Shown here piece by piece: positions 3,125 through 48,288 of a DNA stretch of 64,000 nucleotides. The notes under the pieces were generated by a model that was not told the DNA's origin, searched no databases, and saw nothing but the letters and a program-made list of their open reading frames with translations. A program made the translations under genes and the position numbers. Numbering within the stretch: the first letter of the stretch is position 1; each line of letters begins with the position of its first letter. Location: assembly GCA_949373145.1 (NCBI GenBank), contig CASICI010000011.1:1-64000 (forward strand), read 5' to 3'. The stretch is from an uncultured Phycisphaerales bacterium. Its GTDB lineage: Bacteria; Planctomycetota; Phycisphaerae; Phycisphaerales; SM1A02.

Positions 3125-3161
3125 CCATTCTCCACCCGCCTCCGAGTGGTACACTCGAACC

Positions 3162-14806: not shown

Positions 14807-16307
<1,501 letters not shown>

Positions 16308-16557: not shown

Positions 16558-18501
16558 ATGCAGGATTTGAACAATCAGACACCAGGCGTTTTCGATTCCT
16601 TGGGACGTCGATGTTTCCTTGGAGCCTTGGGTGGATTGGCCGCATCGGCCGTCTGGACTCCTACGCATCGCCTCTTTGCCTCGTCTGCTCCCGTTGGCTG
16701 TCCCGTACCTCCTGACTTTCCTTCCGACATCGAGGTGTATCTCCAGTCATTCGAAAACTGGACGGGTGAAATCTCAATCGATCAACTTTGGACCTGCGCG
16801 CCATCAGATGCCTCAGATGTGGTCCGCCTCGCCAATTGGGCCCATGCTGCTGGTTTCAGACTTCGCCCCCGTGGATTCAAGCACAACTGGTCACCACTGG
16901 TCGTGACACCCGAGACCACATGTTCGACTGAAGTCGTGCTCATGGACATGACCTCGGGATTCTCTTCGATGTCGATGGAAACCGATGGTCCACCTGCGGT
17001 ACGCGTTGGAGCCGGAACCTCGATGGACGACCTGCTTCAATTTCTTGAAGAACAGGGTTACGGCGTCACTTCATGTCCCGCACCTGGTGACATCTCGATT
17101 GGTGGTGTCCTTGCCATTGGCGGTCATGGCACGGGAATTCCCTCCGCCGATGAATCACGCCAGAGTGGACAGACGTTCGGTTCCATGAGTAATCGAGTTC
17201 TGTCCTTGAGTGCCATTGTCTGGGACGACGCCTCTGGACTGTACGAGCGACGCACCTTTGATCGAAACGATCCCGAGATCATGTCACTTCTGGTGAACCT
17301 CGGCCGCGTCGTTCTCACCGAAGTGGTCCTCCAGGTCGAATCGAACGTCTCTTTGCGCTGTGAAAGCTACATGAGCATCTCAGCCAGCGAACTGTTCGCC
17401 CCCAACGGCGCAGGCGGACGAACCTTCGAAAGTTTTCTCGACGAGAGCGGGCGGGTCGAGGCGATCTGGTATCCGTTCACGCAGAACCCCTGGTTGAAGG
17501 TCTGGACGGTCACTCCGAACAAGCCATTCTGGGCCCGTGAGGTCGACACCCCCTACAACTATCCTTTCTCCGACAATCTTTCCAACGATGCCGTGACTTT
17601 GATCAATCAGATTCTTGATGGTGCGCCCGGGCTCACCCCGACGTTTGGAAGTCTGATGTGGACCATCACGAACCTTGGTCTGACCTTTGATGGTGCCTGG
17701 GACATGTGGGGGAAGTCGAAGAACCTTCTTCATTACATCAAGCCCACGACTCTGCGTACCAGTGCCAATGGATACGCGATTCTCACTCGTCGCGACAACA
17801 TACAGGCGGTTCTCAATCAATTCTCGGCGAAGTACCTCGAACTGATGAACGCCTATGCCGATCAGGGTCGGTACCCGATCAATGGTCCCGTTGAAATTCG
17901 TGTGACCGGTCTCGAGCGCCCCGATGAGGTCGAACGGTCCGAGTCACAACCACCCGGACTCTCAGCGGTCACCCCACGTGACGATCACCCTGAATGGGAC
18001 GTGGCCGTCTGGCTTGATCTGCTTACTGTTCCAGAGACACCCGATGCCGGTCCTTTTTACCGCGATTTGGAATCCTGGCTGTTCGCCCAATTCAGTGAGA
18101 CGAACAACACCTCGATTCGAGTCGAATGGTCGAAGGGCTGGGGGTACACGAACGATGGCCCCTGGACGAATGATCAGGTCGTCAATGATCTTGTTCCGGA
18201 CTCATTCCGAAATGGTCGGCCTGACAGTGGAGACTGGGACGCGATGATTGCACAGATGGAGACCTTCGATCCACATGGGGTCGTGGTCAACGATTTTCTT
18301 CTTCAACTACTTGAGGCGAATTCAAGCACGAAGTGCCCTGGCGATCTGAACTCCGACGGCGTCGTCGACGGAACCGATCTCGCACCTCTTCTGGCTGATT
18401 GGGGTGCCAACGGGAGTTCTGCAGACCTCAATGATGATGGCACCGTGGATGGCATCGACCTCGCCGAACTGTTGAGTTCCTGGGGCATCTGCCCTCCCTG
18501 A
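16558..18501 (+). CDS. Exported cholesterol oxidase-like FAD enzyme with dockerin-like tail
   Basis: The 647-residue protein starts with a twin-arginine signal (GRRCFLGALGGLAASAVW). Residues ~50-260 form a vanillyl-alcohol-oxidase-type FAD domain with RPRGFKHNWSPL (His is a candidate for covalent FAD linkage) and GDISIGGVLAIGGHGTG; residues ~270-570 resemble the substrate-binding domain of class II cholesterol oxidases (Brevibacterium type). The C-terminus has two dockerin-like loops, DLNSDGVVDGTDLAPLLADW and DLNDDGTVDGIDLAELLSSW. The enzyme probably oxidises a sterol or bulky alcohol outside the cytoplasm; the substrate is not established. The TAT signal fits a protein folded with cofactor before export. 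Confidence 0.8.
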   Translation: MQDLNNQTPGVFDSLGRRCFLGALGGLAASAVWTPTHRLFASSAPVGCPVPPDFPSDIEVYLQSFENWTGEISIDQLWTCAPSDASDVVRLANWAHAAGFRLRPRGFKHNWSPLVVTPETTCSTEVVLMDMTSGFSSMSMETDGPPAVRVGAGTSMDDLLQFLEEQGYGVTSCPAPGDISIGGVLAIGGHGTGIPSADESRQSGQTFGSMSNRVLSLSAIVWDDASGLYERRTFDRNDPEIMSLLVNLGRVVLTEVVLQVESNVSLRCESYMSISASELFAPNGAGGRTFESFLDESGRVEAIWYPFTQNPWLKVWTVTPNKPFWAREVDTPYNYPFSDNLSNDAVTLINQILDGAPGLTPTFGSLMWTITNLGLTFDGAWDMWGKSKNLLHYIKPTTLRTSANGYAILTRRDNIQAVLNQFSAKYLELMNAYADQGRYPINGPVEIRVTGLERPDEVERSESQPPGLSAVTPRDDHPEWDVAVWLDLLTVPETPDAGPFYRDLESWLFAQFSETNNTSIRVEWSKGWGYTNDGPWTNDQVVNDLVPDSFRNGRPDSGDWDAMIAQMETFDPHGVVVNDFLLQLLEANSSTKCPGDLNSDGVVDGTDLAPLLADWGANGSSADLNDDGTVDGIDLAELLSSWGICPP

Positions 18502-18655
18502 TCAATTCATCAGAGGCGTTGTGTGCCGTTAAACCTCGCCTTTGCCAAAAAAAGAGCTTTTTTCTTCTGAACGACCAAACCAGGGCTGTCCCGCTGGCGA
18601 ACAGTGGGCAGGTTCTTCATTGAACCTTTCCAGGGGCCTGTTGAAAGGACAAGAG

Positions 18656-20533
18656 ATGAGTCTCAAATCCATGCACCGTCTGGTGCCATGTCGTCTTGCT
18701 GTTGGTGCTTTGTTGTTCAGTACCGGATCGTTCGTCACTGCCGAGCCGGCCCAATCCACTGATGTGCTGGTTCGTTTTCTGGAGGATTCCGCCTGGGATG
18801 GCGGGTATTCAGGTCGCATACGAATTGAAAACAATGGTGCACCACTCGTCGGTGGATGGGAATTGACCTATCTCGGTGGACCTGACATCGCGTCCTTGTG
18901 GAATGCCACCTGGTCGAACACGTCAGGGCGAACAACGCTTTCCAATCTTGACTGGAATGGTTCGATTGCAACGGGTGAGTTCATTGAAATAGGGTTCCAA
19001 GGCATCGGCTCTCTGGTCGAAACCGTGCGTGATCCACAATTCAATGGTTCACCAGTCGAAATCAGATACGGCGATGGTGATGGAGATCAGGGTGATGATG
19101 GCAATGGCGAGGGGGACGGTGCGCCACCAGATCCCGATTTCGATCTCGATGGCCGTGTGACGGGGGCTGATCTTTCACAGTTGTTGTCGAATTGGGGCGG
19201 TACGGCCACACGCTTCGACCTTGATCAAAGTGGAGTCGTGGATGGTGGCGACCTCACCCTTCTGTTGGCCGCCTGGTCGACCGGTGACGGTGGTGGCGGC
19301 GGTGACGACGGTGATGGCGGCGGTGACGGTGACGGCGGTCCCGGAATCGAGCAAAAAGTCGTTGGCTACTACATCGAATGGGGCGTCTATGGTCGGGACT
19401 ATCAGCCAGCCGACATGCCTCTCGAGAAGTTGACCCACGTCAATTACGCCTTCGCAGACATCGGCACTGATGGTCGCATCAAGATCGGCGACCCCTACGC
19501 TGCCATTGAGAAACTCTACCCCGGTGACAGTTGGGACCAGCCTTATGCCGGTACCTACAACCAGCTCAACAACGTCCTGCGTGCCGAGCATCCGCACATC
19601 CAGACATTGATCTCCGTGGGTGGCTGGACCTGGAGTGGTCGGTTCTCAGATGTGGCTCTGACCGAATCAAGTCGCAGCCTCTTCGCTGAAAGCTGTGTCG
19701 AATTCATCAGAAGCTACAACTTCGACGGTGTCGACATCGACTGGGAATATCCCGTCGAAGGTGGACTGTCCTCCAACACGAAGCGACCTGAGGATGGCGT
19801 CAACTACACCCTCCTGCTCGAGGAACTTCGTCGTCAGTTGGACATCGCCGCCGAAGAGGACGGTCGTCCCTATCTTCTGACGATCGCCTCGCCCGCCGGA
19901 TGGGACAAGATCCGACATCTCGAGATCGATCGTCTTTCCGACATTCTCGATTTCATCAATGTGATGACCTATGACCTTCGTGGTGCCTGGGATCTGACCA
20001 CGACCGCACACCATGCCAGCATGTTCGAGAACCCTTCTGACCCGTCCGACGCCAACAGCGTCGCCGCGAAGTACAACGTCTCCTGGGTCGTCGATGAATT
20101 CCTCGCTCAGGGTGCGAGTCCGGAGAAGATCGTGCTTGGCATTCCTTTCTACGGACGTGCCTGGGGTGGTGTCTCCGATCCTCTCGGCAACGGCGGACTC
20201 TATCAGCCGGGTTCTCTGGTCCCACCCGGTACCTGGGACGACTGGTCCAGTGGTGCCACCGGAGTCAATGACTTCTTCGAGATCGAGGACATGATTTCTT
20301 CTGGAGCCTACACACGTTACTGGGATGACATCGCGAAGGTTCCCTACCTGTATTCACCCTCGATGCATCAGGGACACTTCATCTCGTACGAAGACGCGGA
20401 GTCACTCACGTACAAGATCGAGTACCTGCTCGAACTCGGACTGGGCGGCGTCATGTTCTGGGAGGTCACGGCCGACCGGAACGACACCCTGCTCGATGTC
20501 ATCATCGAAAACATGGAACCCGTCATTCCCTGA
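18656..20533 (+). CDS. Secreted GH18 chitinase with CBM2-like and dockerin-like modules
   Basis: ATG 18656, preceded by AAGGA, opens a signal peptide (RLAVGALLFSTGSFVTAEPA), giving a 625-residue protein. Residues ~35-135 resemble a cellulose/chitin-binding CBM2 domain (WELTYLGGPDIASLWNATW). A Gly/Asp-rich linker then carries two dockerin-like loops (DLDGRVTGADLSQLLSNW and DLDQSGVVDGGDLTLLLAAW). The GH18 barrel follows (~240-625), with SVGGWTWSGRFS and the catalytic motif DGVDIDWEYP, whose final Glu is the proton donor, then MTYDLRGAWD. It should cleave chitin or related GlcNAc polymers outside the cell. A terminator follows, so it is probably transcribed alone or with the oxidase upstream. 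Confidence 0.9.
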   Translation: MSLKSMHRLVPCRLAVGALLFSTGSFVTAEPAQSTDVLVRFLEDSAWDGGYSGRIRIENNGAPLVGGWELTYLGGPDIASLWNATWSNTSGRTTLSNLDWNGSIATGEFIEIGFQGIGSLVETVRDPQFNGSPVEIRYGDGDGDQGDDGNGEGDGAPPDPDFDLDGRVTGADLSQLLSNWGGTATRFDLDQSGVVDGGDLTLLLAAWSTGDGGGGGDDGDGGGDGDGGPGIEQKVVGYYIEWGVYGRDYQPADMPLEKLTHVNYAFADIGTDGRIKIGDPYAAIEKLYPGDSWDQPYAGTYNQLNNVLRAEHPHIQTLISVGGWTWSGRFSDVALTESSRSLFAESCVEFIRSYNFDGVDIDWEYPVEGGLSSNTKRPEDGVNYTLLLEELRRQLDIAAEEDGRPYLLTIASPAGWDKIRHLEIDRLSDILDFINVMTYDLRGAWDLTTTAHHASMFENPSDPSDANSVAAKYNVSWVVDEFLAQGASPEKIVLGIPFYGRAWGGVSDPLGNGGLYQPGSLVPPGTWDDWSSGATGVNDFFEIEDMISSGAYTRYWDDIAKVPYLYSPSMHQGHFISYEDAESLTYKIEYLLELGLGGVMFWEVTADRNDTLLDVIIENMEPVIP

Positions 20534-35813: not shown

Positions 35814-38483
35814 ATGAACATGCTGTACACGCTCATTTTGACCATTCTGGCCCCCTTCGTGACCCCGGTCACGGCTCAGGATGCCGTGGCGCCCGACCGA
35901 TTCCTGGTGGCGCAGCAACGAAAAGTCGCGTTTTTCGGCTTTGAAGAGGTTGGTAGCTTCTTCACGCCACTTCCAGCGCCCTTTTTTCGGGTGCTGACCT
36001 CCGTCACCAGCCGTCCTGGATTCCCTCCCTTCGGTTCGGTGGGCGTTGATGAGTCCGTGGCGTTTTCTGGTGACTGGTCCCTCGCATTCGACGTCGATGG
36101 GGCGTCGATCGCTGTGGCAGTGCCCACGGCCCGGATTCCGATCTATCCCCAGAGTGAATACGAGGTTCGGGTCCGTGTTCGAACGTCCGGGCTCGCTCAT
36201 GCAGGGGCGTCGCTGGTGGTTCGACTTCATGATCTCGACGGGAGAGAGATTCCCGGAACGAAACGTGAATCGGTCCCCGTCCGCACCAACGGCGAGTGGA
36301 CGATGCTGTCGGTTCGTCCGCCCACCGACATTCAATCCGCGGCCGATCTCACCTTCGAGCTCCACCTCAAGCAGGATGAGAGACCGGATCTTTCCGGCAA
36401 GGTCTGGTTTGATGAGATCGAGGTCTGGCAGCTTCCTCGCATGAGCCTGACGGCTCGACCGATCTCCGGGGTCACCCGGTTGCCCGAGCGGCCGACCCTG
36501 AAAGCGTCCTTGAACGACCTCGCCACCGGAACGCTGACTGCGGTCCTCAGCGTCTTCGACCTCGACGGTACGCTTCGCGTGGAACGTCGTGAGCCGATCT
36601 CCCGAGGAAGAACATCTCTGGTTCTGAACTTCGACGATCTTCCGGTGGGGTGGTATCGAGGACGTCTGTCCCTTCTCGATGGCGACACCCTGCTTGCCCG
36701 CGAGGATCAGGCGCTCGCGATTCTTCCTGAATCCAGCCGCAGCACCCTGACCTACGAGGCACCCCATTTCGGTGTGTCCTTTTCCGATTCCTTCGAGGAT
36801 CCGGCTGCTTCCGAACTGGAGTTCGCGTCGGTGCTTCGCCCTGATTACGTTTCGGTTCCGGTCTGGCAGTCGGGACGCCCCGCTCGTCTGGATTCCGAAC
36901 GTTCCAGAGGCATGGACGCCTTCGTCGATGCCCTGCATGCGTCCGGAATCGAGCCCGTGTTCGAACTTTCGGGACTTCCTTCCGATCTCACTCTGCAGAA
37001 CATCGGGCGGACGGGTGATGACGACGTCCTCGAGCTGATCGGTCGCGGTGATCTCAAGGTCCTTGATCTTCTGTCCAACTGGATGGCTCAGTACGGCGAC
37101 GAGGTTTCTCGTTGGCGAGTCGATTCCCCCGGCCGGGTGAGTCCGCTTCAGATCGATTCAGCTCTGGGTGAGATCGATCAACGCACTCGTACCTTCGTGG
37201 CGGCTCCGATCCTCGAGCTCGACGTGGATATTCTCGATTCTCGGTCGGACTCCGACGACTCCAAAACCTTCGAGACAGAATTCCTTCCGATGCGTTTCCT
37301 CGGTGACGGCTTCGATGGTCCGCTTCGCAATGGCGAGTCAAGTGGTCTTCTGGTGATCGATTCCGGACGTGCTTTTCAAGATGATCGAATGCGAGCCACT
37401 CGCGTGGCCCGTGATCTCGTCGAAGCGTGGGCCCGTGGAGTGGACTATCTCGAGCTTGAAGCGCCCTGGAACCAGAGAAGTGGCGCCTTCTCTCTCAAGG
37501 GCCTCGATGCCGCCGGATACGTCTTTCACATGATCGCGTCACGGTTGTCGGCTCGCGGGCCACAGATTCCAGTTCCCCTGGGACGAGGACTGAATGCCTA
37601 TCTCCTCAAGGGGGAGTCCGAAGAACCCATGATCGTGGCCTGGGCGACCGAAGGCTCCGCCACCATGGAACTCGCTCCGGAATTCGGTTCGATCCGCATC
37701 ACCTCGATCGATGGGACCACTTCATCCCTGCTCGATGCCCGAGGTCCCCGTCTGATTCAGCTCGACGATGCGCCCGTCTTTCTGACCGGATTCGACAAGA
37801 AGATCGCACGGTTTCGAGCCGAAGCGTCGATGACGCCGGAATTCATCGAAGCCTCCACCGGTGTCCATGAATGCATGTTCAGCCTGCACAATCCCTGGAC
37901 CGAAGCCATCGAAGTCCGTCTTCGCCCCGTCGGGCCCGCCAGTTTCCGTTTTCAGCCCATGAGCCGTCGTGTCACGATCCAGCCCGGAGCTCGAGAGCGA
38001 GTGGGGTTCGAATTCACGTTTCCCAGAACCCAGGTCGATGGCGCGCTTGATCTGCGATTGAGTGCCGAGATCATCGGTGCCCAGGAACAGACCGCCCAGT
38101 TGCTGGTTCCGACGAGTGTCCAATCAAGTCGCATGGCGTTGGAAAGTTCCTGGCGTCTTTCGCGTGATGCCGGCGGACGTGACAATGGAGTCCTCGTCAG
38201 TCTTTCCGCCTACAACAGCGGCAGCACTCCCTTGCTGCTCGAGGCGTTCTGCTCCGCGGTCGGATTCGCACCGATGCGCAAGGCGATGCCTGAAATCCTT
38301 CCCGGTGAGACGACCACCCGAACCTTCTTCTATCCGGATGGCCAGAACGTTCTGCCCGGGCGCGAGATCCTGGTGGGGCTTTCGGAACTCGAATCAGATG
38401 GGTATCTGGTCCGTCGGCTCGCGATCACCGAGGATGTGGGTTCCCTGTTGGTGACGGAACCGGTTCTCGATGACATGGAGTGA
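35814..38483 (+). CDS. Large secreted beta-rich protein of unknown function
   Basis: The 889-residue protein has a signal peptide (MLYTLILTILAPFVTPVTAQ). Residues ~45-210 look like a jelly-roll carbohydrate-binding domain (SGDWSLAFDVDG, YEVRVRVRTSGLAHAG, KVWFDEIEVWQ). A middle part (~300-600) has barrel-like features (FGVSFSDSF, VPVWQSGRPARLD, GVDYLELEAPWNQRSG), and the last ~250 residues are beta-sandwich-like (TIQPGARERVGFEFTFP). The layout resembles extracellular glycan-active proteins, but no catalytic pair was identified. It ends 11 bp from the convergent 38495 gene. Confidence 0.6.
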   Translation: MNMLYTLILTILAPFVTPVTAQDAVAPDRFLVAQQRKVAFFGFEEVGSFFTPLPAPFFRVLTSVTSRPGFPPFGSVGVDESVAFSGDWSLAFDVDGASIAVAVPTARIPIYPQSEYEVRVRVRTSGLAHAGASLVVRLHDLDGREIPGTKRESVPVRTNGEWTMLSVRPPTDIQSAADLTFELHLKQDERPDLSGKVWFDEIEVWQLPRMSLTARPISGVTRLPERPTLKASLNDLATGTLTAVLSVFDLDGTLRVERREPISRGRTSLVLNFDDLPVGWYRGRLSLLDGDTLLAREDQALAILPESSRSTLTYEAPHFGVSFSDSFEDPAASELEFASVLRPDYVSVPVWQSGRPARLDSERSRGMDAFVDALHASGIEPVFELSGLPSDLTLQNIGRTGDDDVLELIGRGDLKVLDLLSNWMAQYGDEVSRWRVDSPGRVSPLQIDSALGEIDQRTRTFVAAPILELDVDILDSRSDSDDSKTFETEFLPMRFLGDGFDGPLRNGESSGLLVIDSGRAFQDDRMRATRVARDLVEAWARGVDYLELEAPWNQRSGAFSLKGLDAAGYVFHMIASRLSARGPQIPVPLGRGLNAYLLKGESEEPMIVAWATEGSATMELAPEFGSIRITSIDGTTSSLLDARGPRLIQLDDAPVFLTGFDKKIARFRAEASMTPEFIEASTGVHECMFSLHNPWTEAIEVRLRPVGPASFRFQPMSRRVTIQPGARERVGFEFTFPRTQVDGALDLRLSAEIIGAQEQTAQLLVPTSVQSSRMALESSWRLSRDAGGRDNGVLVSLSAYNSGSTPLLLEAFCSAVGFAPMRKAMPEILPGETTTRTFFYPDGQNVLPGREILVGLSELESDGYLVRRLAITEDVGSLLVTEPVLDDME

Positions 38484-38494
38484 GCTTCCGCGCG

Positions 38495-39067
38495 TCACAG
38501 AGCTCGTTCGGGGGCTCGGCCCATCAACGACTCGAAGATGATTCGAGTGATCTCCCAGCGGCCCTGCTCGTCCTCATCGACTTCGAAACTCCAGGTGGTG
38601 GGTACCAGGCCGTAGCTGCCGCTGGTCGACGTCCTGCAGGACAGGAAGACCAGTGCGCCACCCTGGCCGTTCGATTCACCTCTGAGGCGGATCACCCAGT
38701 TTTCCGTGATTCGATTGCGCCCCGAGAGGGTCTTGAAAGACGCCTGAACCGCCGAAAACGGTTGCCCAGGTCTGGTCACGCTGCCAAGGTGAAGTGATGC
38801 CTCCGGCGAGATGCGCTGCAACATCCCTTCGACATCACCTGCCTCCGCCGCATCGACCAGTTCCGAGACCACCCGTTCTCCGTGTTCCGCGGAGGTCGTC
38901 ACCAGTGCATCCAGCGCAAAGACCAGACCTGCCAGGCCCACGGCTGCGAGGCTGGCGATCAGCACTCGGCTCTCTCCGGTTCGAAGGAAGCCGATGATGA
39001 GAATGAGCCCCACGACCCCTGAAATGATCCCGATGGGCCAGGGGTTCTCTAGAAAATAGTGACTCAT
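38495..39067 (-). CDS. Membrane protein with SnoaL/NTF2-like domain
   Basis: The 190-residue protein has two N-terminal membrane helices (IGIISGVVGLILIIGFL and VLIASLAAVGLAGLVFALDA), then a ~120-residue domain with the pattern of NTF2-like folds (LVDAAEAGDVEGMLQRISPE near its start and WSFEVDEDEQGRWEITRI near its end). Function unknown. Divergent from the Maf-fusion operon. Confidence 0.55.
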   Translation of the reverse strand: MSHYFLENPWPIGIISGVVGLILIIGFLRTGESRVLIASLAAVGLAGLVFALDALVTTSAEHGERVVSELVDAAEAGDVEGMLQRISPEASLHLGSVTRPGQPFSAVQASFKTLSGRNRITENWVIRLRGESNGQGGALVFLSCRTSTSGSYGLVPTTWSFEVDEDEQGRWEITRIIFESLMGRAPERAL

Positions 39068-39204
39068 GGACGTCTCCAGTGGGCATGTTTCTCCAGTTCA
39101 AATGGACTGGGGACCGATAATTACACTATATGGAATCCGATTCGTCGGGTCGTCATGGTTGATCGTTCGCCTGACGTTTTTCACTTCATGCATTTCAAGG
39201 CAGC

Positions 39205-42200
39205 TTGCGCGTGTCCTCAAACGACATCGACAGACAGTCACATTCCGACGGCTCCGGGGCCACGTCGCATGACAGCGAGAGACTCACACGAAATCTCGCC
39301 TGTCTCGCCGTGTCCGCACCGGAGGTTGCCGCGCAGATCGAGCAGGCGAATGGAAGTCCGGTCACCTTTCAGACGGCCGCCGATGGTGCCACCGTCGGTC
39401 TGGTGTCCGAAGGGCGCAGACTGGCCAGTCTGCACCAGCCCCTGGTCGAAGCACGCAACTGGGCCGAGCGAGTCGATCCCGCGGAGACTGCCTGTGTTCT
39501 CGTCCTCGGTTTCGGAGTCGGTCACCATGTCGAGGCTCTGCTCACCCGCTTGAATCGGACCGGTGTGGTCCTCGTTCATGAGCCCGACGTCGCACGACTT
39601 CGAACGATCCTCTCCAACATCGACTGCACGAAGTGGATGGATCCCAGATTCGTTCGCTGGATCACGGACGCCGAAGACGAGGTTCAGTTCACCAGATGTT
39701 TCAGCGACATCGAGACGCAGATGGTCGCCGGTACGAAGATCCTCGAGCATGCACCGTCGCTTCGTGGATTCGAAGATCAGGTTCGAACGATCAGTGCCCG
39801 TCTGACGGATGCGGTCAACAGTGCAAGAACGACGATGACCACGACTTTGATGCGCAGTGCTGGGACCGTTCGAAACGAACTTATGAACGTCGATCATTAC
39901 GCGCTTGGTTCGGGGATCGGTGCACTCTCCGGTCTGGCGCAGGGGCGGCTCGGTGTGGTGGTGAGTGCGGGTCCCAGTCTTCAGAAGAACATCAAGATGC
40001 TCGGGCGAAGCGGTGTTCGAGATCGATGCATGATCATCGCGGCGCAGACGGCCCTGCGTCCTCTTCTCGACGCGGGCATCAAGCCGCATTTCGTCACGGC
40101 GCTTGATTACCACCACATATCGAAGCGTTTCTATGAAGGTCTCAGCAAGAAGGACGTCGAAGGAATCACCCTGATCGGTCTGCCCCAAGCGCACCCGGTC
40201 ATCGCCGACAGTTGGCCCGGAGCGATCCGGTGGTGCCGTGCGATCGTCCTCGAACACATACTCGGGGATACGGGTCCCGATGTTCAGTCACTTGAATCAG
40301 CCACCACCGTGGCGCATCTTTCCTACCACTTCGCCCGTCATCTCGGGTGTGATCCGGTGGCCTTCATCGGTCAGGACCTCGGCTTCACCGATGGACTCTA
40401 CTACGCACGTGGCACCGCGATCGATGATGTCTGGTCGACCGAGCTCAATCCCTTCAACACCATCGCCAAGATGGAGTGGGAACGGATCGTCCGGCATAGA
40501 GGCATGCTTCATCGTCTGGAGGACATCAACGGCCGTTCGATCCTGACTGACCGGCAGATGCTCACCTATCTGAGACGTTTCGAGACCCACTTCACCGCGG
40601 ATGTGCAGAAGGGTCTCACCATCATCGACGCCAGCGAAGGCGGCGTTCGCAAGGCCTCGACCGAAGTCGCGTCGTTGCGTGCCACGCTCCGTGCCCATGC
40701 ACCCAGAGGAAGTGACTCCATCGCGGCCATTCCGATGCCGGACAAGGCGACGGATTCCAGGCAGGCGGATCGGGTGCGCGACCGACTGAACGCGCTTCTG
40801 AACGATGTTCACGCCCTGAATGCGGTCTCACGTGACACCGCGGGACTGCTTGACCGGCTGGCAGCCTGTCTCGAAGACGATGCCCGATCCCGCAAGGTGT
40901 TCGATGCGATCGAAGTGAAACGTCATGCGGTCGATGATCTTTCAGAGGCCTTTGAATTCGTCAATCAGATCAATCAGCTCGGCGCCTTCAAGCGATACCT
41001 CGCGGATCGCAGGATCGACATTCAATCGAACGACGATCCTCGTGACATGCAGCGTCTTCAGATTCAGCGCGATCTCGTCAACGTCGAGTTCCTGGCACAG
41101 GCGGGGGATGATGCCGCGGACATGCTCGAGGATTCGATCAAGCTGCTCGGTTCAGGAAAGACCTCCGCGCCCGACGCTCCTCGATCGAGGAATCGTGTCG
41201 AAGCCGCTCCGGTCGATCTCGATCCGGGTGCGAAGCGACCGACCGAGCGCGTCAGCGCCTTCATTCCGATCGATCCCATGATGGGTGGGGCCGGGAGTCG
41301 TCGAAGTCTGCGCAAGTCGATCGTCTCCCAGAGCGTGCTCCAGTCCACCTTGGAACGGATCGCTTCCTCGGAGTTGTTGGACTCGATCATCCTGCTGGTT
41401 CCTGATGAATGTGATCTCATCGAGGAACTCGATCTGTCCAGAGTCAGACTTCCGGTCACGGTCGAACGTTGCGGTTCGTCGGCATTCGGTGCCGAGCACG
41501 AGGTGATTCTCACCGCACGCATGTTCGCCGATCGATGCTGGCGGGGAGGCATCGCGGGAATGACCGTCTTCGATGAGAATCTCTCCGCGGAGCACACCGC
41601 CCGGGTGATGTCCAGAGATGGAATCAATGGTGCGGTGATCTGCGGGCCGGACTGGCCGCTGGTCGAAGTGCTGGGACAGGGGGGCATCGACGCGCTCATC
41701 GAACGCTGGCGCGAACACGATGGTCGAAAGGAATTCATCTTCACCCAGGCACCTCCCGGACTTGGAGCCTGTCTGGCATCAGCCGATCTGATCGGTCGTC
41801 TTCAGCCGAACAACCGCCTCGCCACGTTCGGCGCCATGCTCGGCTACCGACCGGAACGTCCCGAGCATGATCCCATCGCGCGCGAAGGGAATGTGCCGAT
41901 CGATGCCCAGGTCCGACGTTCGCAGGTGCGTGGCATCTTCGATTCCGCTCGGTGTCGTCTCAGAATCCGACGTGCACTGCAGCCATTCATGCAGTCCGAG
42001 ATGAATGAAACGATGCCGCTTTCGAATCGTGAGATCGTGGATCAGCTCGAGACCATGCGACGTGGCGGGCTGCCGTCCTTCACTCCGCGGCACGTGCAGA
42101 TCGAACTGTGCACCGGGCGACTTGGTTCGGGTTCGTGCAGTCCGCATCGCTACGGCACGATCCAACGCGAACCGATTACCATGTCCCGTTTCAAGCGAAT

Positions 42201-42924
42201 CATCTCCGATCTCGGGGACGGGAACGATTCCCTGGTGACGCTGGGTGGAATCGGTGATCCACTGCAGCACCCCGGGTGCGTCGACTTCATTCGCATGGCG
42301 CTCGACGCGGGCATCATCGGTGTTCATCTCAGAACCGAACTTCAATGTTCTCCGGCCGTCCTACGCGACCTCGCGACCTCCGGCGTGGGCGTGGTCTCCG
42401 TGGAGTTGAACGCCGATTCACCGGAAACCTACCACCGGGCGATGGGGCATGACGGATATGCCACGGTGATGGCCAACATCGAGGAACTCATTCGATCCCG
42501 ACGGTCCATTCGTGGCTCCGGCCCCGGGGCGCTTGCGCTCCCCTGGATCGTTCCGCGGATTCAGCGATGCTACGACACCTACGAGGACATCGAGCCGTTC
42601 TTCGAACGGTGGCAGCGCGTGCTCGGCACGCCGGTGATCGATCCTCAGATCGTGATCGATCCGCTGGAGAAGATTGGTCCGAACACTCTGGCGGATGCAT
42701 CGAATCCCGAGCGGACCATGATCAGTGAATCCTTCCGCCGCATGACGATCCACAGCGATGGCTGGGTTCCCACATCGGAGCTCGATCTCAACGGAACACG
42801 ATGTGTCGGCAACGTCGATGAGCACTCGATCATGGAGCTCTGGCGAAAAGTGATTCACGAGCGTCGCCGTGCGCTCCGTGAAGACGGACCCCGTGCCTTT
42901 CAATTGAGGACTTATCAACCGTGA
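39205..42924 (+). CDS. Maf-type flagellin glycosyltransferase fused to cytidylyltransferase-like and Cys-poor radical-SAM/SPASM-like domains
   Basis: The 1,239-residue protein has three parts. Residues ~90-420 match Maf (DUF115/MAF_flag10): VLVLGFGVGHHVEALL, then GVVVSAGPSLQKNI, PHFVTALDYHHI and VAFIGQDLGFTDG. Residues ~680-920 resemble SpsF-like cytidylyltransferases (VSAFIPIDPMMGGAGSRRSL, and GPDWPLVEVL in the place of the metal-binding region), but the nucleotide loop is degenerate. Residues ~960-1220 follow the radical-SAM plus SPASM pattern (TLGGIGDPLQHPG, PWIVPRIQRC, IHSDGWVP, GNVDEHSIMELW), but the CxxxCxxC triad reads G-x3-C-x2-H and the SPASM cysteines are missing. Maf proteins transfer sialic-like sugars to flagellin. 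The start is TTG 39205 or GTG 39211. It overlaps neuA by 4 bp. Confidence 0.8.
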   Translation: MRVSSNDIDRQSHSDGSGATSHDSERLTRNLACLAVSAPEVAAQIEQANGSPVTFQTAADGATVGLVSEGRRLASLHQPLVEARNWAERVDPAETACVLVLGFGVGHHVEALLTRLNRTGVVLVHEPDVARLRTILSNIDCTKWMDPRFVRWITDAEDEVQFTRCFSDIETQMVAGTKILEHAPSLRGFEDQVRTISARLTDAVNSARTTMTTTLMRSAGTVRNELMNVDHYALGSGIGALSGLAQGRLGVVVSAGPSLQKNIKMLGRSGVRDRCMIIAAQTALRPLLDAGIKPHFVTALDYHHISKRFYEGLSKKDVEGITLIGLPQAHPVIADSWPGAIRWCRAIVLEHILGDTGPDVQSLESATTVAHLSYHFARHLGCDPVAFIGQDLGFTDGLYYARGTAIDDVWSTELNPFNTIAKMEWERIVRHRGMLHRLEDINGRSILTDRQMLTYLRRFETHFTADVQKGLTIIDASEGGVRKASTEVASLRATLRAHAPRGSDSIAAIPMPDKATDSRQADRVRDRLNALLNDVHALNAVSRDTAGLLDRLAACLEDDARSRKVFDAIEVKRHAVDDLSEAFEFVNQINQLGAFKRYLADRRIDIQSNDDPRDMQRLQIQRDLVNVEFLAQAGDDAADMLEDSIKLLGSGKTSAPDAPRSRNRVEAAPVDLDPGAKRPTERVSAFIPIDPMMGGAGSRRSLRKSIVSQSVLQSTLERIASSELLDSIILLVPDECDLIEELDLSRVRLPVTVERCGSSAFGAEHEVILTARMFADRCWRGGIAGMTVFDENLSAEHTARVMSRDGINGAVICGPDWPLVEVLGQGGIDALIERWREHDGRKEFIFTQAPPGLGACLASADLIGRLQPNNRLATFGAMLGYRPERPEHDPIAREGNVPIDAQVRRSQVRGIFDSARCRLRIRRALQPFMQSEMNETMPLSNREIVDQLETMRRGGLPSFTPRHVQIELCTGRLGSGSCSPHRYGTIQREPITMSRFKRIISDLGDGNDSLVTLGGIGDPLQHPGCVDFIRMALDAGIIGVHLRTELQCSPAVLRDLATSGVGVVSVELNADSPETYHRAMGHDGYATVMANIEELIRSRRSIRGSGPGALALPWIVPRIQRCYDTYEDIEPFFERWQRVLGTPVIDPQIVIDPLEKIGPNTLADASNPERTMISESFRRMTIHSDGWVPTSELDLNGTRCVGNVDEHSIMELWRKVIHERRRALREDGPRAFQLRTYQP

Positions 42925-43649
42925 CTCAGACAGATGATGTGAATTCGATCACCGCCGTGATCGTCGGTCGGCGTGGCAGCAAGGGATTTCCCAACAAGAA
43001 CTCCCGAGTTCTTGGTGGAAGACCGATGGTGGTGCATTCGATCGAGCAGGCGAGGCAGGCCGCATGCATCGATCATGTGATCGTCTCGACTGATGGCGAG
43101 GAGATCGCTGCCGCCGCGCGTGCGGAGGGTGTCGAGGTCATCATGCGACCGCCATCGCTTGCATCCGACGAGGCGTCGGTCGATTCCGCGGTCCGCCACG
43201 CGATCGAGTCGTCCGGAGTCGCTTCTCGAAGAGTGGTGATTCTCTACGCGAACGTTCCGATCAGACCGCGTGACCTGATCGACGATGCGGTGCAGCATCT
43301 CGAGAAGACCGGAGCGGACAGTGTTCAAAGCTACGAGTCAGTCGGAAAACATCACCCATGGTGGATGGTGCGCGTCGGTGAGAATGACTCGATCAGTGCA
43401 TGGCATCAGAACGACGTCTATCGCAGACAGGATCTTCCGCCAGCCTATTTTCCCGATGGCGGTGTGATCGCCCTCACTCGCGAATCACTCTTCACGGTGG
43501 AGCCCGATGCACCGCATGCGTTTTTGGGACGTGACCGCCGTGCGATCGTCAATGCGATCGGTTCCGTCATCGACATCGACGACGAGATCGACATGTTGGT
43601 GGCTGAAGCGATCATCAAACGCCGGGAGACCGTCGAGGGTGGTCCATGA
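42921..43649 (+). CDS. neuA: CMP-nonulosonic acid (sialic/legionaminic) cytidylyltransferase
   Basis: The 242-residue enzyme joins a nonulosonic acid to CMP using CTP, producing the donor for glycosyltransfer. The N-terminal nucleotide motif AVIVGRRGSKGFPNKNSRVL matches the family (normally A-R-x-G-S-K-x-x-x-K-N), followed by VIVSTDGEEIAAAA, RPPSLASDEASVDSAV and DIDDEIDMLVAEA. GTG 42921 overlaps the stop of the Maf fusion (GTGA), and its end overlaps neuB. Which acid it uses (Neu5Ac, legionaminic or pseudaminic) cannot be told from the sequence. Confidence 0.9.
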   Translation: MTQTDDVNSITAVIVGRRGSKGFPNKNSRVLGGRPMVVHSIEQARQAACIDHVIVSTDGEEIAAAARAEGVEVIMRPPSLASDEASVDSAVRHAIESSGVASRRVVILYANVPIRPRDLIDDAVQHLEKTGADSVQSYESVGKHHPWWMVRVGENDSISAWHQNDVYRRQDLPPAYFPDGGVIALTRESLFTVEPDAPHAFLGRDRRAIVNAIGSVIDIDDEIDMLVAEAIIKRRETVEGGP

Positions 43650-44710
43650 CATCCACCGATGATCCACTGACGGGTGAAGCACCGACGCCCTGCGGCACCT
43701 CCCATCCATTCGTGATCGCCGAGATCGGTGTGAATCACGATGGTGACCCCGCCCGCGCGGAAGCCCTCGTCGATGCCGCGGCCGAGGCCGGCGCGGATGC
43801 CGTGAAGTTTCAATGGTTCGAGCCCCGACGTCTCTTGTCACGAAGTGCCGGACTCGCCGCCTATCAGACAGCCGCGGGCGAGCTGGATCCCATCACCATG
43901 CTCGATCGGCTTCGACTCGATGCCGACGGACTCGAACGTGCCCGGCTGCGAGCCGTCCACCACGGACTCCGTTCCGTGGTCACCGTCTTCTCCCCCGAAC
44001 TGGTGGGGGAGGCGGATCGATTGGCGTGGGATCTGTACAAGACGGCTTCACCTGATGTCGTGAATCGACCGCTGTTGGAAGCCGTGGCCTCCACCGGCAG
44101 ACCCATGATCATCAGCACCGGTGGCGCCACGGTGACCGAAGTCCGTCAGGCCCTCGAATGGATCCCCGAAATTCGTCCCACCCTGCTTCACTGCGTCAGC
44201 AGTTATCCCACGCCCATTGAATCGACCGCCCTCGGAGGCATCGGCGCACTGGCCCGTGCGTTCGCAACGACCGTCGGATACAGCGACCACACCGTGTCCG
44301 TCCATACCGGTGGGCTGGCCGTGGCGGCAGGTGCCCGTGTTCTGGAAAAACATCTCACCTGGAATCGTGATGCCGAAGGTCCTGATCACGGGGCGTCGAT
44401 CGAACCCGAGAACTTCCGAGAGTACGTTCGATTCGCACGACGGTCCGCGATCATGCTGGGCGCGTCTGACAAGATTCCATTGCCTCTTGAACGAGACGTC
44501 ATGGCGACCTCGCGACAGTCCGTCGCGGTACGGCGTGATGTTCCCGCCGGTCAGGTGCTCGTCTCCGGGGATCTCACGACCATGCGTCCCGGGACAGGTG
44601 TTCCGGCCGCCTCGCTCTCGACGTTCGTCGGGTGCAGGACTCGCCGTGCCCTTGAGGGCGGGACGCTCCTCGAGCCTGCTTCAGTGGAAAGACCGGAGGC
44701 GGCATCATGA
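43646..44710 (+). CDS. neuB: Nonulosonic acid synthase (NeuB/LegI family)
   Basis: The 354-residue enzyme condenses phosphoenolpyruvate with a ManNAc-type sugar. FVIAEIGVNHDGDPARA, AAAEAGADAVKFQWFEP, YKTASPDVVNRPLL and TVGYSDHT form the NeuB barrel signatures, with metal-binding His and Glu. The C-terminal ~65 residues are the SAF/antifreeze-like domain (SVAVRRDVPAGQVLVSGDL). Its ATG overlaps the neuA stop and its stop overlaps the neuC start by 4 bp. The family includes NeuB, LegI and PseI; the subtype is not resolved. Confidence 0.93.
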   Translation: MTSTDDPLTGEAPTPCGTSHPFVIAEIGVNHDGDPARAEALVDAAAEAGADAVKFQWFEPRRLLSRSAGLAAYQTAAGELDPITMLDRLRLDADGLERARLRAVHHGLRSVVTVFSPELVGEADRLAWDLYKTASPDVVNRPLLEAVASTGRPMIISTGGATVTEVRQALEWIPEIRPTLLHCVSSYPTPIESTALGGIGALARAFATTVGYSDHTVSVHTGGLAVAAGARVLEKHLTWNRDAEGPDHGASIEPENFREYVRFARRSAIMLGASDKIPLPLERDVMATSRQSVAVRRDVPAGQVLVSGDLTTMRPGTGVPAASLSTFVGCRTRRALEGGTLLEPASVERPEAAS

Positions 44711-45819
44711 ACCATCGTCGAGTCCTCGTCGTCACCGGAAGCCGGGCTGAATTCGGCCTGCTGTCCTCGACGCTCGACGCACTTCATGAACACTCCGCCA
44801 TCGAGTGTTCGCTGGTGGTCGCTGGTTCACATCTGATCGGAAACGAGCCGACGGTTCGCGAGATCGAATCGAGGTACCCCATCGTCGGATTGGTCGAGAT
44901 GCAGCTCGACTCAGAACCACGGACCCGCGGTTCGTACGGATTCTCATTGGCCCGAGGTGTCGAAGGATTCACCACTCTGTTCACGCGTCACGAACCCGAC
45001 GTCGTGCTGATTCTCGGCGATCGAATCGAGATCTTCGCGGCGGCCAGTGCGGCTTCGCTTCTTGGAATCAGGGTGGCGCACGTTCATGGAGGTGATGTGG
45101 CCGTCGGTGTCGCTGACGATTCGATGCGACATGCGACCACCAAGCTTTCGCATCTCCACCTTGCAGCCACCCGACTCAGTGCGGAAAGAATTCTCGCGAT
45201 GGGGGAGCATCCCAAGTCCGTCTTCGTGGTGGGTTCACCTGCGGTCGACGGACTGGATTCGATCCCCCCGCTGGACGAGTCCACCTGGGTCTCTCAAGGA
45301 TCACCGGATATTCTGGTGCAGATGCATCCCACCGGACACTCGGACGAGGTCGAACATGGTCTGGCTCTGAGTCTCTTCGAATCACTTTCCGACGCCGGAC
45401 GTCTGGTCGTGATGGCGCCCAACGTCGATCCCGGCAGTGACGGCATTCGTCGTGCCATTCTTGAAAGTGGTCTGCCACTGATCGAACATCTGCATCGCAC
45501 TGAATTCGTCGGTCTGCTTCGACGTCTTCGACTCTTCGTCGGAAACAGCAGTGCCGGCCTTCTGGAATGTGCTGCATTGGGCGTTCCCGTTCTCGATGTC
45601 GGTGATCGACAGTCGGGACGCGAGCGAGGTGTGAACGTGACGCATGTCGATGTCGTTACCGGACCTGAGTTCGAGCGGGCATTGAACGAAGCCTCCGGTG
45701 GCTCGAAGTCACGGATCGACGAGAGATTCGGTCCCGGCGATACCGGTCGAAAGATCGCCGATCTGCTCGCCGACCTCGATTTCGAAGACATCCCGGTTCG
45801 AAAACGCTGGTATTCATGA
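44707..45819 (+). CDS. neuC: UDP-GlcNAc-type 2-epimerase, hydrolysing (NeuC/LegG family)
   Basis: The 370-residue GT-B fold enzyme hydrolyses a UDP-GlcNAc-type sugar with 2-epimerisation, giving the ManNAc-type substrate of NeuB. VVTGSRAEFGLLSSTLDAL, VLILGDRIEIFAAASAA, VAHVHGGDVAVGVADDSMRH and LFVGNSSAGLLECAALGVPV are characteristic of NeuC rather than WecB (SRAEFG and HGGD). It is the last gene of the four-gene operon, all joined by 4-bp overlaps. Confidence 0.93.
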   Translation: MNHRRVLVVTGSRAEFGLLSSTLDALHEHSAIECSLVVAGSHLIGNEPTVREIESRYPIVGLVEMQLDSEPRTRGSYGFSLARGVEGFTTLFTRHEPDVVLILGDRIEIFAAASAASLLGIRVAHVHGGDVAVGVADDSMRHATTKLSHLHLAATRLSAERILAMGEHPKSVFVVGSPAVDGLDSIPPLDESTWVSQGSPDILVQMHPTGHSDEVEHGLALSLFESLSDAGRLVVMAPNVDPGSDGIRRAILESGLPLIEHLHRTEFVGLLRRLRLFVGNSSAGLLECAALGVPVLDVGDRQSGRERGVNVTHVDVVTGPEFERALNEASGGSKSRIDERFGPGDTGRKIADLLADLDFEDIPVRKRWYS

Positions 45820-45934
45820 TCCCAGCCCCGGAACCCTCTCGAATCATCGAATGACACCTCAAGAACCTCCGTGGTCTGGCCGACACAGATCATGTCGTTC
45901 TGAATCCATCCACCATGGACATCCGGGGTACATC

Positions 45935-46828
45935 ATGTGTGACGCTCATCTCGATTCAAATGCCCACCAGGTCGCTCAGGAGATCGTTGGTGGAATCGCG
46001 CACATGTCGACGCTTCCCGAAGTGACGATGCAGATCATCGACATCATCGAGGATCCCAACAGCTCCGCGAAAGATCTGCATCAAATCGTTTCCAGTGATC
46101 CCGCGCTGTCCAGTCGAATCCTCAAGGTCGTCAATTCCTCGTTCTACGGGATGCCACGACAGATCGCATCGATCAATCGTTCGATCTCTTTGCTCGGTCT
46201 GAATGCAGTGAAGAATCTCGCGATCGCGGCAAGTCTCGGGCACATCTTTCGATTCGAGGGGACACTTCCTCACTTCGAGGTCCGAGATCTCTGGGAACAC
46301 AGCATGAAGACCGCGGCCGCCTCCTGTCTGGTCGCACGTCATACCGGTTCACAATCCACCGATGAGGCCTTTCTTGCAGGACTGCTGCACGACATCGGCT
46401 TTCTCGTGGAACTCCAGCATGACTCCGCAGAGTTCACTTCGATGATGGAACAGGTCAGCGTCGACGGGGATGGCACTCCCAAGGTCGATCTTCTCGAACT
46501 GGAACGAGCCACCTTCAGAACGAATCATCAGTCGATCGGGGCCGTCCTCTGTGAACAGTGGAAGTTTCCTCGGTCGCTCGTCTCGGCCACGGCGCACCAC
46601 CACGACCCTTCGGTTCTCAGTGGCGACGAGTCCCTCGTTCCCTGGTTCGTGCACGTTGGAGACCATCTGGTCGCCCATCTTCCAGGTGGATTCCGCCTGG
46701 ACCTCATGCACACCGCCGTTCATGAGAACGCGCTGGAGGCACTGCGCATGGATGAAGAGGGTTTTCAGGCGATTTTCGATCAAATCAACGGTGTGTCCGG
46801 TGAGATCGCATTTTCCATGGCAGCCTGA
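45935..46828 (+). CDS. HDOD domain signalling protein
   Basis: The 297-residue protein is almost entirely an HDOD domain (~20-215): LPEVTMQIIDIIEDPNSSAK, ILKVVNSSFYGMPRQIASI and SISLLGLNAVKNLAIAAS are typical. A later HD-like segment reads FLAGLLHDIG and ATAHHHDP. HDOD proteins take part in regulation, often near chemotaxis or second-messenger genes; no catalytic role is assumed. ATG 45935 is chosen because the domain starts just after it. It follows the nonulosonic acid operon at 115 bp. Confidence 0.85.
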   Translation: MCDAHLDSNAHQVAQEIVGGIAHMSTLPEVTMQIIDIIEDPNSSAKDLHQIVSSDPALSSRILKVVNSSFYGMPRQIASINRSISLLGLNAVKNLAIAASLGHIFRFEGTLPHFEVRDLWEHSMKTAAASCLVARHTGSQSTDEAFLAGLLHDIGFLVELQHDSAEFTSMMEQVSVDGDGTPKVDLLELERATFRTNHQSIGAVLCEQWKFPRSLVSATAHHHDPSVLSGDESLVPWFVHVGDHLVAHLPGGFRLDLMHTAVHENALEALRMDEEGFQAIFDQINGVSGEIAFSMAA

Positions 46829-46862
46829 GGTCCACTCTCGCCCGAGTGCCTAACATGTTCCA

Positions 46863-47582
46863 ATGTCCGGCTCGTTCCTCATAGATTTCGGAAATCCGAT
46901 CGCACTGTTCCCCTTGGTGGGCGTGGTGCTGTATCCCCACACCGTTCGTGATCTGCACATCTTCGAACCTCGCTATCGCCAGATGATCGAGCATGCGGTC
47001 TCTCCCGCGATCGATGGGGATCTCGGGCAGTCGCTTCCAATCGCCATGTCGGTGCTCGAGAAGGGTGTCGTGTCCTGCGACTCCCTCGGAATGCCACCGT
47101 TGCGCAGAGTCGCCTGTATCGGTCGTCTGCTCAAGGATCACAAACTTCCCGATGGACGCCATTTCATCCGCCTGCACGGGGTCTGTCGTGCTGAGATACG
47201 ACATGTCGAAGAGCCTCAGGGAGACCGGCTCTATCGACGAGCCTTCCTGAAGCCCATCAACCAGGCGGCCACCAACATTCCCAAGAGCTGCAGAGGACGT
47301 CTTCACGACCTGCTCTCAAGTGAACGACTGGTCCGGATGCGACTTGCCGACGAGGTCCGAGGGTACGTAGAAAAGGATGACATCTCACTCGAGACCGTGG
47401 TCGAGATCGCTTCCTTCGTGCTCGTTCAGGATGAATCGATCCGCTACCGACTGCTTGCCGAACGGGACCCGTCGCGCAGAGCTCTGATCCTCTTCGGAGA
47501 ATTGGAACGTCTGGATCAACTCGTCGAATTGTGCGATCTCCAGCAGTGGAAGGACTGGCCGAAGGGGCTCAGCTGGAATTGA
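46863..47582 (+). CDS. Lon N-terminal (substrate-binding) domain protein
   Basis: The 239-residue protein matches the stand-alone Lon_N (LON substrate-binding) family: PIALFPLVGVVLYPHTVRDL, IFEPRYRQMIEHAV and a helical C-terminal half. No protease or ATPase domain follows. Role unknown, perhaps substrate recognition. It is 34 bp after the HDOD gene and may be cotranscribed with it. Confidence 0.85.
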   Translation: MSGSFLIDFGNPIALFPLVGVVLYPHTVRDLHIFEPRYRQMIEHAVSPAIDGDLGQSLPIAMSVLEKGVVSCDSLGMPPLRRVACIGRLLKDHKLPDGRHFIRLHGVCRAEIRHVEEPQGDRLYRRAFLKPINQAATNIPKSCRGRLHDLLSSERLVRMRLADEVRGYVEKDDISLETVVEIASFVLVQDESIRYRLLAERDPSRRALILFGELERLDQLVELCDLQQWKDWPKGLSWN

Positions 47583-47604
47583 AACGGATCATGATCCGAA
47601 TCGA

Positions 47605-48288
47605 TCAAAATCCCACTGGCCTCGTGCCTTCCGGGAGTGGAAGGCCCTCCTCGTCCTTCGTCCTCACGGGCGGTTTCACCTTCTCGAGTGCCGCGTCCCA
47701 TGTCCTGATCTTGTCCGCATAGGGCGCCAGCACCGCCGTTGGATCACCCACGATGCGGATCGATTTGATCCAGTCACCCTTCTGAGTCGCGCTGACCACA
47801 TCGATTCCATCCACGACCTCGCCGAACGAGGGGTAACTCAGATTCCAGGGCGACTGTTCGGTCTTCGACACGAAGAAACGAGTGGGGTGAGGAATGGAGT
47901 TCTCGACCATCTTGGGATCGTCCATGAGCGTCCACGCGATGATGCCCGGTCGGTCAAAGAGAAGTTCCGTGGTGAAATTCGGGACGATCGTGTAATTGGG
48001 GGTTCTGTACTTGGTGTTTGCAACACTGAAACTTGCGGGATTCGCGTTCGCGACTTCCGAGCCGTGATAGAACCCGCTTTGCACGAGATTGACGAAGTTC
48101 GCCACCGCCACCGGTGTCAGGTCCGATCGAAGCAGGACCGTGAATTCACCACGTTGGGTGCTGATGACCGCCTTCAGTTCGGGGGGGGGCTCTGCCACGG
48201 TCTCCCGGCTGGAGATGCTGTCATCACATCCTGTGGTGAACAGGAAGGAGCCGGTACAGAGGAGCGTCAAGAGGTTTCGAATGGTCAT
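47605..48288 (-). CDS. Cyclophilin-type peptidyl-prolyl isomerase lipoprotein
   Basis: ATG 48288 opens a lipoprotein signal (LLTLLCTGSFLFTTGC). The 227-residue product has the cyclophilin core, RGEFTVLLRSDLTPVAVANF and LVQSGFYHG at the start, then the PGIIAW segment and SFGEVVDGIDVVS at the end. The usual active-site run FxxQ is not clearly present (TRFFVSKTEQ may replace it), so activity is uncertain. Codons ~34-36 contain a run of nine C (G9 at 48181-48189), giving three prolines. Convergent with the Lon_N gene. Confidence 0.85.
   Translation of the reverse strand: MTIRNLLTLLCTGSFLFTTGCDDSISSRETVAEPPPELKAVISTQRGEFTVLLRSDLTPVAVANFVNLVQSGFYHGSEVANANPASFSVANTKYRTPNYTIVPNFTTELLFDRPGIIAWTLMDDPKMVENSIPHPTRFFVSKTEQSPWNLSYPSFGEVVDGIDVVSATQKGDWIKSIRIVGDPTAVLAPYADKIRTWDAALEKVKPPVRTKDEEGLPLPEGTRPVGF

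Follow-up and report, generated by a model that had tools for sequence, protein, structure and literature searches.

A four-gene operon in a 64,000-nucleotide stretch of DNA from an uncultured Phycisphaerales bacterium (GenBank assembly GCA_949373145.1, contig CASICI010000011.1, positions 1 to 64,000; hereafter the window) is very likely to produce a sialic-acid-like sugar and to attach it to flagella. Its first gene encodes a fusion of three parts, a Maf glycosyltransferase, a cytidylyltransferase-fold domain and a domain resembling radical S-adenosylmethionine (SAM)/SPASM enzymes, and is followed by genes for NeuA-, NeuB- and NeuC-like enzymes (Table 1). We regard it as probable that the operon serves flagellin O-glycosylation, with a non-radical accessory module behind Maf. 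Maf accompanied by nonulosonate genes and acting on flagellin is a known kind of system. For the fusion of Maf with a cytidylyltransferase-fold domain and a degenerate radical SAM domain, for its spread through the Phycisphaerae and for its tie to the spiro-SPASM family, no description was found in the open-access literature searched. The source genome comprises 2.10 Mb in 42 contigs and is 75.5% complete, with the window on contig C11; below, genomes and loci are cited by G and L numbers.

Anatomy of the Maf fusion

The Maf part consists of an N-terminal Rossmann-like domain, a central MptE/sialyltransferase-like domain and a C-terminal helical domain, and its match to the MptE-like family PF01973 (Maf_flag10) exceeds the cut-off of 34.6 bits. 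An AlphaFold2 model of amino acids (aa) 1-645, computed from 27 sequences with a predicted local distance difference test score (pLDDT) of 86.4 and a predicted template modelling score (pTM) of 0.77, aligns with Magnetospirillum magneticum Maf (5mu5; Z 23.8, root-mean-square deviation (rmsd) 6.3, 536 aligned residues over 22-644) and, more distantly, with the human sialyltransferase ST8SiaIII (Z 7.8-8.3). In this model the three-domain Maf fold is present nearly at full length, a feature shared with the Maf transferases of Magnetospirillum (5mu5), Aeromonas caviae (Maf1) and Clostridium botulinum (CbMaf), together with nonulosonic acid donor genes and flagellar association. The NCBIfam model FlagModPseD gives the fusion 41 bits against a cut-off of 670; it describes one subgroup, and the low score speaks against that subgroup only. 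Unlike the three Mafs just named, the fusion carries two extra C-terminal domains, none being described in the available portions of PMC4065374 and PMC11339370.

The cytidylyltransferase-fold domain has no Pfam match in the window protein, and PF04055 matches the radical-SAM-like domain below its cut-off. Because a search of the accessory part (the two extra domains) against PDB sequences gave weak matches only, the best with an expect value (E) of 0.0026, fold comparison was used. An AlphaFold2 model of aa 662-1239, computed from 26 sequences (pLDDT 88.9, pTM 0.90), shows two known folds. Model residues 19-303 match the Leptospira ‘Cytidylyltransferase’ 6oew (Z 19.4, rmsd 3.3, 226 aligned, 16% identity) and CMP-Kdo synthetases (Z 14.3-14.7), while residues 295-575 match MoaA (Z 20.8, rmsd 2.9, 249 aligned) and SuiB (Z 21.1, rmsd 3.0, 264 aligned), the predicted structure having the partial TIM barrel of radical SAM enzymes.

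The CxxxCxxC motif of these enzymes is found in 0 of 82 accessory sequences (distinct strings of at least 25 bits), and in 0 of 93 after the addition of 11 from across the phylum, found by profile; some of the sequences represent the same genome twice with different ends, and independent genomes are fewer than 82 or 93. With the motif absent from all 93, radical SAM activity was rejected as a reading of the final domain. In 26 of 26 Phycisphaerales accessory sequences R311 (alignment numbering) is invariant, at what we take to be the place of the first cluster cysteine, located by the ELTNRC pattern. Of the 93 sequences, 39 retain cysteines in a SPASM-like pattern, all 11 phylum-wide picks among them, whereas fused members of the window's family have lost it; the SAM cluster appears to have been lost first and the auxiliary cluster afterwards. 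A catalytic accessory part, comprising a second active nucleotidyltransferase and/or non-radical sugar-modifying chemistry, would fit the middle domain, which is nearest in fold to the Leptospira cytidylyltransferase and has a conserved D155 and an invariant W156 (26-sequence alignment), as well as the retained SPASM-like cysteines and a GDPL motif whose G356 and D357 are invariant (26/26) and which presumably stands where active radical SAM enzymes have GE(P). Such a role nevertheless appears rather unlikely in view of the missing CxxxCxxC, the additional loss of the SPASM cysteines in the window's family and the separate NeuA encoded next door.

The ratio of nonsynonymous to synonymous substitution rates (dN/dS), measured between the window and two congeners, is 0.07-0.09 for the cytidylyltransferase-fold domain, 0.10-0.11 for the radical-SAM-like domain, 0.12-0.13 for Maf and 0.14-0.16 for NeuB, compared with 0.26-0.51 for the relaxed linker. 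Thus, both extra domains are under purifying selection and are not decaying. The lost cluster cysteines and a few shortened members (L024, L035) could also be taken as signs that the radical-SAM-like part has no function left and is decaying, which is hardly credible for a part under constraint as strong as that on Maf and NeuB, and found throughout the class as well as in other parts of the phylum.

Radical SAM/SPASM maturases bind peptide substrates, and the pseudo-radical-SAM part is for this reason read as a putative flagellin-binding module; the cytidylyltransferase-fold domain may bind the CMP-sugar or NeuA. Together, the extra domains would most likely carry out no radical chemistry, and would recruit flagellin and/or the CMP-sugar or NeuA. 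In Caulobacter, the specificity of the cytoplasmic flagellin O-glycosyltransferase FlmG comes from a separate flagellin-binding domain (PMC7591256), and FlmG further resembles the proposed system in its NeuB-dependent donor, but it does not belong to the Mafs, binds through an N-terminal TPR domain, and has pseudaminic acid as its sugar.

Sugar synthesis enzymes and their product

From their families, we infer that NeuC would free a 2-epimerised N-acetylhexosamine (HexNAc) from its UDP-sugar, that NeuB would join it with phosphoenolpyruvate to form a nonulosonic acid of the neuraminic/legionaminic kind, and that NeuA would activate this acid with CTP to give the CMP-sugar. The NeuC match to TIGR03568 (NeuC_NnaA) lies above the curated cut-off of 235.9 bits, and the closest PDB entries are 5xvs (diacetylbacillosamine 2-epimerase, 162 bits) and then human GNE (145 bits). 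NeuB scores 274.9 bits on TIGR03569 (NeuB_NnaB; cut-off 399.65) and 193.7 bits on the PseI model (cut-off 340.25), in each case under the cut-off, and its best PDB match is Neisseria meningitidis NeuB (2wqp). The best PDB match of NeuA is N. meningitidis CMP-N-acetylneuraminic acid (Neu5Ac) synthetase (1eyr, E 1.4e-28), and its highest subfamily score is on PseF (97.7 bits, far under the cut-off of 205.7).

A NeuB phylogeny, proposed in an earlier note on this DNA as a check against the neuraminic (Neu), legionaminic (Leg) and pseudaminic (Pse) types, was computed from 52 of 88 rows, namely the window, the references, three selected rows and every other planctomycete row. One clade (support 98/87) unites 38 of the 40 planctomycete rows, including that of the window, and the two PseI references form a clade of their own (100/100). 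Because E. coli K1 NeuB groups with the Leg references, with N. meningitidis NeuB as a long branch, the tree does not separate the Neu and Leg types. On this placement NeuB belongs to the sialic (NeuB/LegI) family and lies outside the pseudaminic branch, and the note's reading withstands the refuting test that it had set for itself, a position of NeuB outside the sialic family. Pseudaminic acid was rejected as the product on the sub-cut-off PseI and PseF scores and the position of NeuB outside the PseI clade. The predicted product would then be a neuraminic- or legionaminic-type acid, Neu and Leg being indistinguishable here.

The operon resembles both the Neu5Ac and the Leg pathways in having NeuC-, NeuB- and NeuA-type enzymes encoded together. 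Sequence identity places the window NeuB closer to four Leg-type plasmid synthases (39-42%) than to the NeuB proteins of E. coli K1 and N. meningitidis (32-33%), whereas NeuC identities (33% to E. coli K1, 33-38% to Leg-type) do not discriminate the two. Yet neither LegB nor LegC is found over its cut-off in the source genome at its 75.5% completeness, and among 61 relatives LegB is over its cut-off in none and LegC in three. A PF02719 dehydratase, encoded in the window at 3610-5070 and found in 55 of the 61 genomes, could stand in for the Leg enzymes; it does not decide between Neu and Leg because it also occurs in several genomes without NeuB. If the product is legionaminic, the earlier enzymes must be encoded elsewhere. 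Of the full route from UDP-sugar to transfer that the earlier note had assigned to these genes, the compact synthesis, activation and transfer operon is upheld, and its start from the UDP-sugar would, for a legionaminic product, depend on enzymes outside the operon.

In the relatives L051, L052, L053, L090, L094 and L099, NeuA and NeuB form one protein, mostly with NeuC next. The Maf operon of G115, a genome of the same class, contains between neuA and neuB a gene (L131:3690-5171, minus strand) for a B12-binding radical SAM protein in which CxxxCxxC is intact and which may methylate a sugar or a peptide.

Flagellin and other candidate acceptors

The Maf domain is proposed to act in the cytoplasm, moving the sugar from the CMP-sugar to Ser/Thr residues of flagellin that has yet to be exported. 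In Aeromonas, Maf1 makes direct contact with flagellin and does its work before the chaperone binds (PMC4065374); CbMaf is able to use CMP-Neu5Ac, and the residues that it glycosylates are Ser/Thr in the D1 loop of flagellin (PMC11339370). The earlier note saw no flagellar gene in sight and suggested that the acceptor may not be flagellin. Its first observation holds for the window, where a Pfam scan of 45 likely genes found no flagellar family above cut-off. It does not extend to the genome, in which the search for flagellar genes that the note had itself suggested gave four Flagellin_N matches on another contig (C6), open reading frames (ORFs) resembling FlgK, FlgL, FliW and CsrA beside them (named by reading their translations), and one FlhA; the genome has one MptE-like gene and one NeuB. 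The suggestion of a non-flagellin acceptor is not supported; against it stand these genes, co-occurrence in relatives and linkage in other planctomycetes.

Of the 61 relatives, 49 have a match to the Maf fusion, 49 to flagellin, 45 to NeuB and 55 to FlhA. Counted as both, Maf only, the other only and neither, Maf is associated with flagellin (46/3/3/9, p 2.4e-6), with NeuB (44/5/1/11, p 1.1e-7) and with FlhA (49/0/6/6, p 1.7e-5) by Fisher tests that ignore kinship among the genomes. FlhA is present in all 49 relatives with the fusion, and the six without FlhA also lack Maf, NeuB and flagellin. The single relative with NeuB and no Maf match, G033, has the tail of the radical-SAM part at a contig end; it is also, with G011 and G025, one of three with flagellin and no fusion match. 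In 15 of 15 further genomes, chosen for distant or less typical named loci, NeuB and flagellin are both present, and G019 has three flagellin matches. Linkage is seen in G038, in which Maf-neuA-neuB-neuC begins about 7 kb after three flagellins of one flagellar cluster; in G090 (L134, another class), with the order FliD, FliS, a 204-aa protein of no assigned name, Maf, accessory protein and NeuA; and in G122 (L136), where about 3 kb holding other genes separates FliD-FliS from the accessory gene downstream of it and Maf was not detected. From co-occurrence and linkage, we infer that flagellin is the favoured acceptor.

Several observations weigh against flagellin glycosylation by this operon, besides the kinship that the Fisher tests ignore. 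Operon and flagellins lie on different contigs of the source genome, and NeuA and NeuB score below the curated cut-offs of every specific NCBIfam subfamily. Three relatives (G003, G004, G028) have the fusion and FlhA and no flagellin match. NeuB is not matched, at E 1e-10, in G018 and G028 (both 97% complete), whose fusion is diverged, nor in the fusion-bearing G014, G015 and G027 (74-82% complete). Flagellin occurs in the absence of both Maf and NeuB in G011 (96% complete) and G025 (91%), which means that a flagellum need not depend on them. The role given to the accessory part is, moreover, read from its anatomy only.

The three relatives with the fusion and no flagellin match, like the lack of flagellar genes among the scanned window proteins, would be expected if the acceptor were another surface protein (e.g. 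an envelope or S-layer-like protein) and the flagellar association were indirect. This is improbable considering that every fusion genome has FlhA and no genome without FlhA has Maf or NeuB, that the genes are linked to flagellins or fliD-fliS in G038, G090 and G122, and that G003 (92% complete) and G004 (79%) are incomplete genomes with flagellin-bearing congeners. An additional, non-flagellin acceptor may exist beside flagellin.

The closest published statement is that freshwater Nemodlikiaceae, members of the same class, have flagella and a surface decorated with sialic acids (PMC6461901); one metagenome-assembled genome of that study, ZH-13MAY13-plancto70, holds this operon (L079), and the available portion of the paper mentions neither Maf nor flagellin as acceptor. 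As that text speaks of surface sialic acids only, and as NeuABC also serve polysaccharides in E. coli K1 and several plasmid loci, the sugar might be destined mainly for lipopolysaccharide or capsule, with Maf as a passenger. Such a passenger role is most improbable for a Maf gene that comes first in the operon, stays fused or adjacent and is followed by NeuA, NeuB and NeuC together in 31 of the 36 fused loci described below; nor does Pfam detect a capsule family in the ten window proteins flanking the operon. With flagellin as the favoured acceptor, the remark on surface sialic acids in freshwater Phycisphaerae (PMC6461901, available portion) would gain a concrete acceptor, and a sugar coat would be predicted for planctomycete flagella, along with an uncomplicated set of genes for testing that prediction.

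A protein of about 200 aa is encoded just upstream of Maf in other classes (L134:2772-3386, L135:9364-10011, L133:8404-9003); in L134 it lies between FliS and Maf, and in L134 and L135 it has no Pfam match.

Distribution, gene layout and other window features

A scan for the accessory part in a collection of genome contigs gave 68 named loci, all of Planctomycetota type; two carry the bin names Limnohabitans and Vicinamibacteraceae, taken for binning errors, and a few ‘uncultured bacterium’. Fusion of the accessory part to Maf is seen in 36 loci and adjacency in 27 (63 of 68 together); four loci are cut off upstream and one has no Maf. Adjacent-form loci without NeuA, NeuB and NeuC in the fetched stretch number 15, and 12 of the 15 further genomes tested carry the adjacent form without local NeuA/B/C, with NeuB elsewhere in the genome. 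In L099 genes of the Maf locus overlap by over 400 bp, Maf being found by profile search, and Maf was not detected in three of 11 phylum-wide loci inspected (L136, L137, L140).

The accessory part of the window protein matches the spiro-SPASM model TIGR04321 with 43 bits (E 2e-11), under the cut-off of 250 bits and over the second domain only (profile 228-483). All 26 aligned accessory sequences match the model at E up to 0.01 (best 9e-39), and L117 matches positions 89-505 of 510, covering both domains. The cut-off was passed by no accessory sequence, the best score in the phylum (392 genomes) being 158 bits. At E 1e-10, 117 of the 392 genomes match, which is not a count of the module because ordinary radical SAM proteins, including those of the E. 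coli and B. subtilis controls, match TIGR04321 too. These alignments show distant homology of the accessory part to the uncharacterised spiro-SPASM family, from which it differs in that all its scores stay under the cut-off. A pseudo-radical-SAM/SPASM protein with a cytidylyltransferase-fold head might be a standing Maf partner throughout the Planctomycetota, joined to Maf in one protein in many Phycisphaerales, and a SAM enzyme turned to docking flagellin and the CMP-sugar, with spirochaete spiro-SPASM doing the same job; this broader proposal is tentative and rather doubtful. If true, it would give a degenerate radical SAM/SPASM lineage a testable role in docking the acceptor or donor of a Maf transferase, a role extending through homology to spiro-SPASM, and the fusion would reveal what this family, known by sequence alone, does.

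The 4-bp overlaps claimed in the earlier note are real at all three junctions of Maf fusion, neuA, neuB and neuC, all on the forward strand, as read from ORF limits and junction bases. The exact overlap is not a conserved feature, since the 4-4-4 arrangement is seen in only four of the 31 fused named loci with NeuA, NeuB and NeuC all present; tight gene packing is general among relatives. TTG 39205 is the longest possible start of the Maf fusion, and GTG 39211 is the more likely one because the fusions of the two closest relatives (L007, L008) begin at its position. A scan of 38400-47700 for promoters and terminators found no more than in shuffled sequence.

Table 1. Features of the operon and its downstream neighbour, numbered from the first nucleotide of the window
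Feature	Coordinates	Strand	Basis
Maf fusion gene, 1239 aa	39205..42924	+	ORF; PF01973 110 bits
Maf glycosyltransferase part, aa 1-645	39205..41139	+	AlphaFold2 model, fold match 5mu5
Cytidylyltransferase-fold domain, about aa 681-930	41245..41994	+	AlphaFold2 model and fold match
Radical-SAM/SPASM-fold domain without cluster cysteines, about aa 955-1239	42067..42921	+	Fold match, weak profiles
ELCTGRLGSGSCSPHR, site where radical SAM enzymes have CxxxCxxC	42103..42150	+	Alignments
NeuA-like CMP-nonulosonate cytidylyltransferase, 242 aa	42921..43649	+	CTP_transf_3 84 bits
NeuB-like nonulosonate synthase with SAF domain, 354 aa	43646..44710	+	NeuB 206 bits
NeuC-like hydrolysing UDP-HexNAc 2-epimerase, 370 aa	44707..45819	+	TIGR03568 289.5 bits
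HDOD-domain protein, frequent neighbour	45698..46828 (ORF limits, putative start)	+	PF08668 187 bits

The gene after neuC in the window encodes an HDOD-domain protein, a signalling-type domain that stays with the glycosylation operon; it is matched in 18 of the 34 named loci that have NeuC and room after it, and lies near the operon also in the same-class relative L131.

Elsewhere in the window, a full-length 16S rRNA gene (14807-16301) stands alone, and no 23S rRNA, 5S rRNA or tRNA gene was found in the 64 kb; the rRNA genes seem to be unlinked. A CoA_binding_3 ORF (2997-3827) and the Polysacc_synt_2 dehydratase ORF (3610-5070) overlap in different frames, and in several relatives one frame of over 630 aa takes their place; 2997-5070 may represent a PglF/CapD-type gene that has been split or frameshifted. 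A cholesterol-oxidase-type FAD protein that includes a dockerin domain (16558-18501) is adjoined by a GH18 chitinase-type protein with CBM2 (18542-20533).

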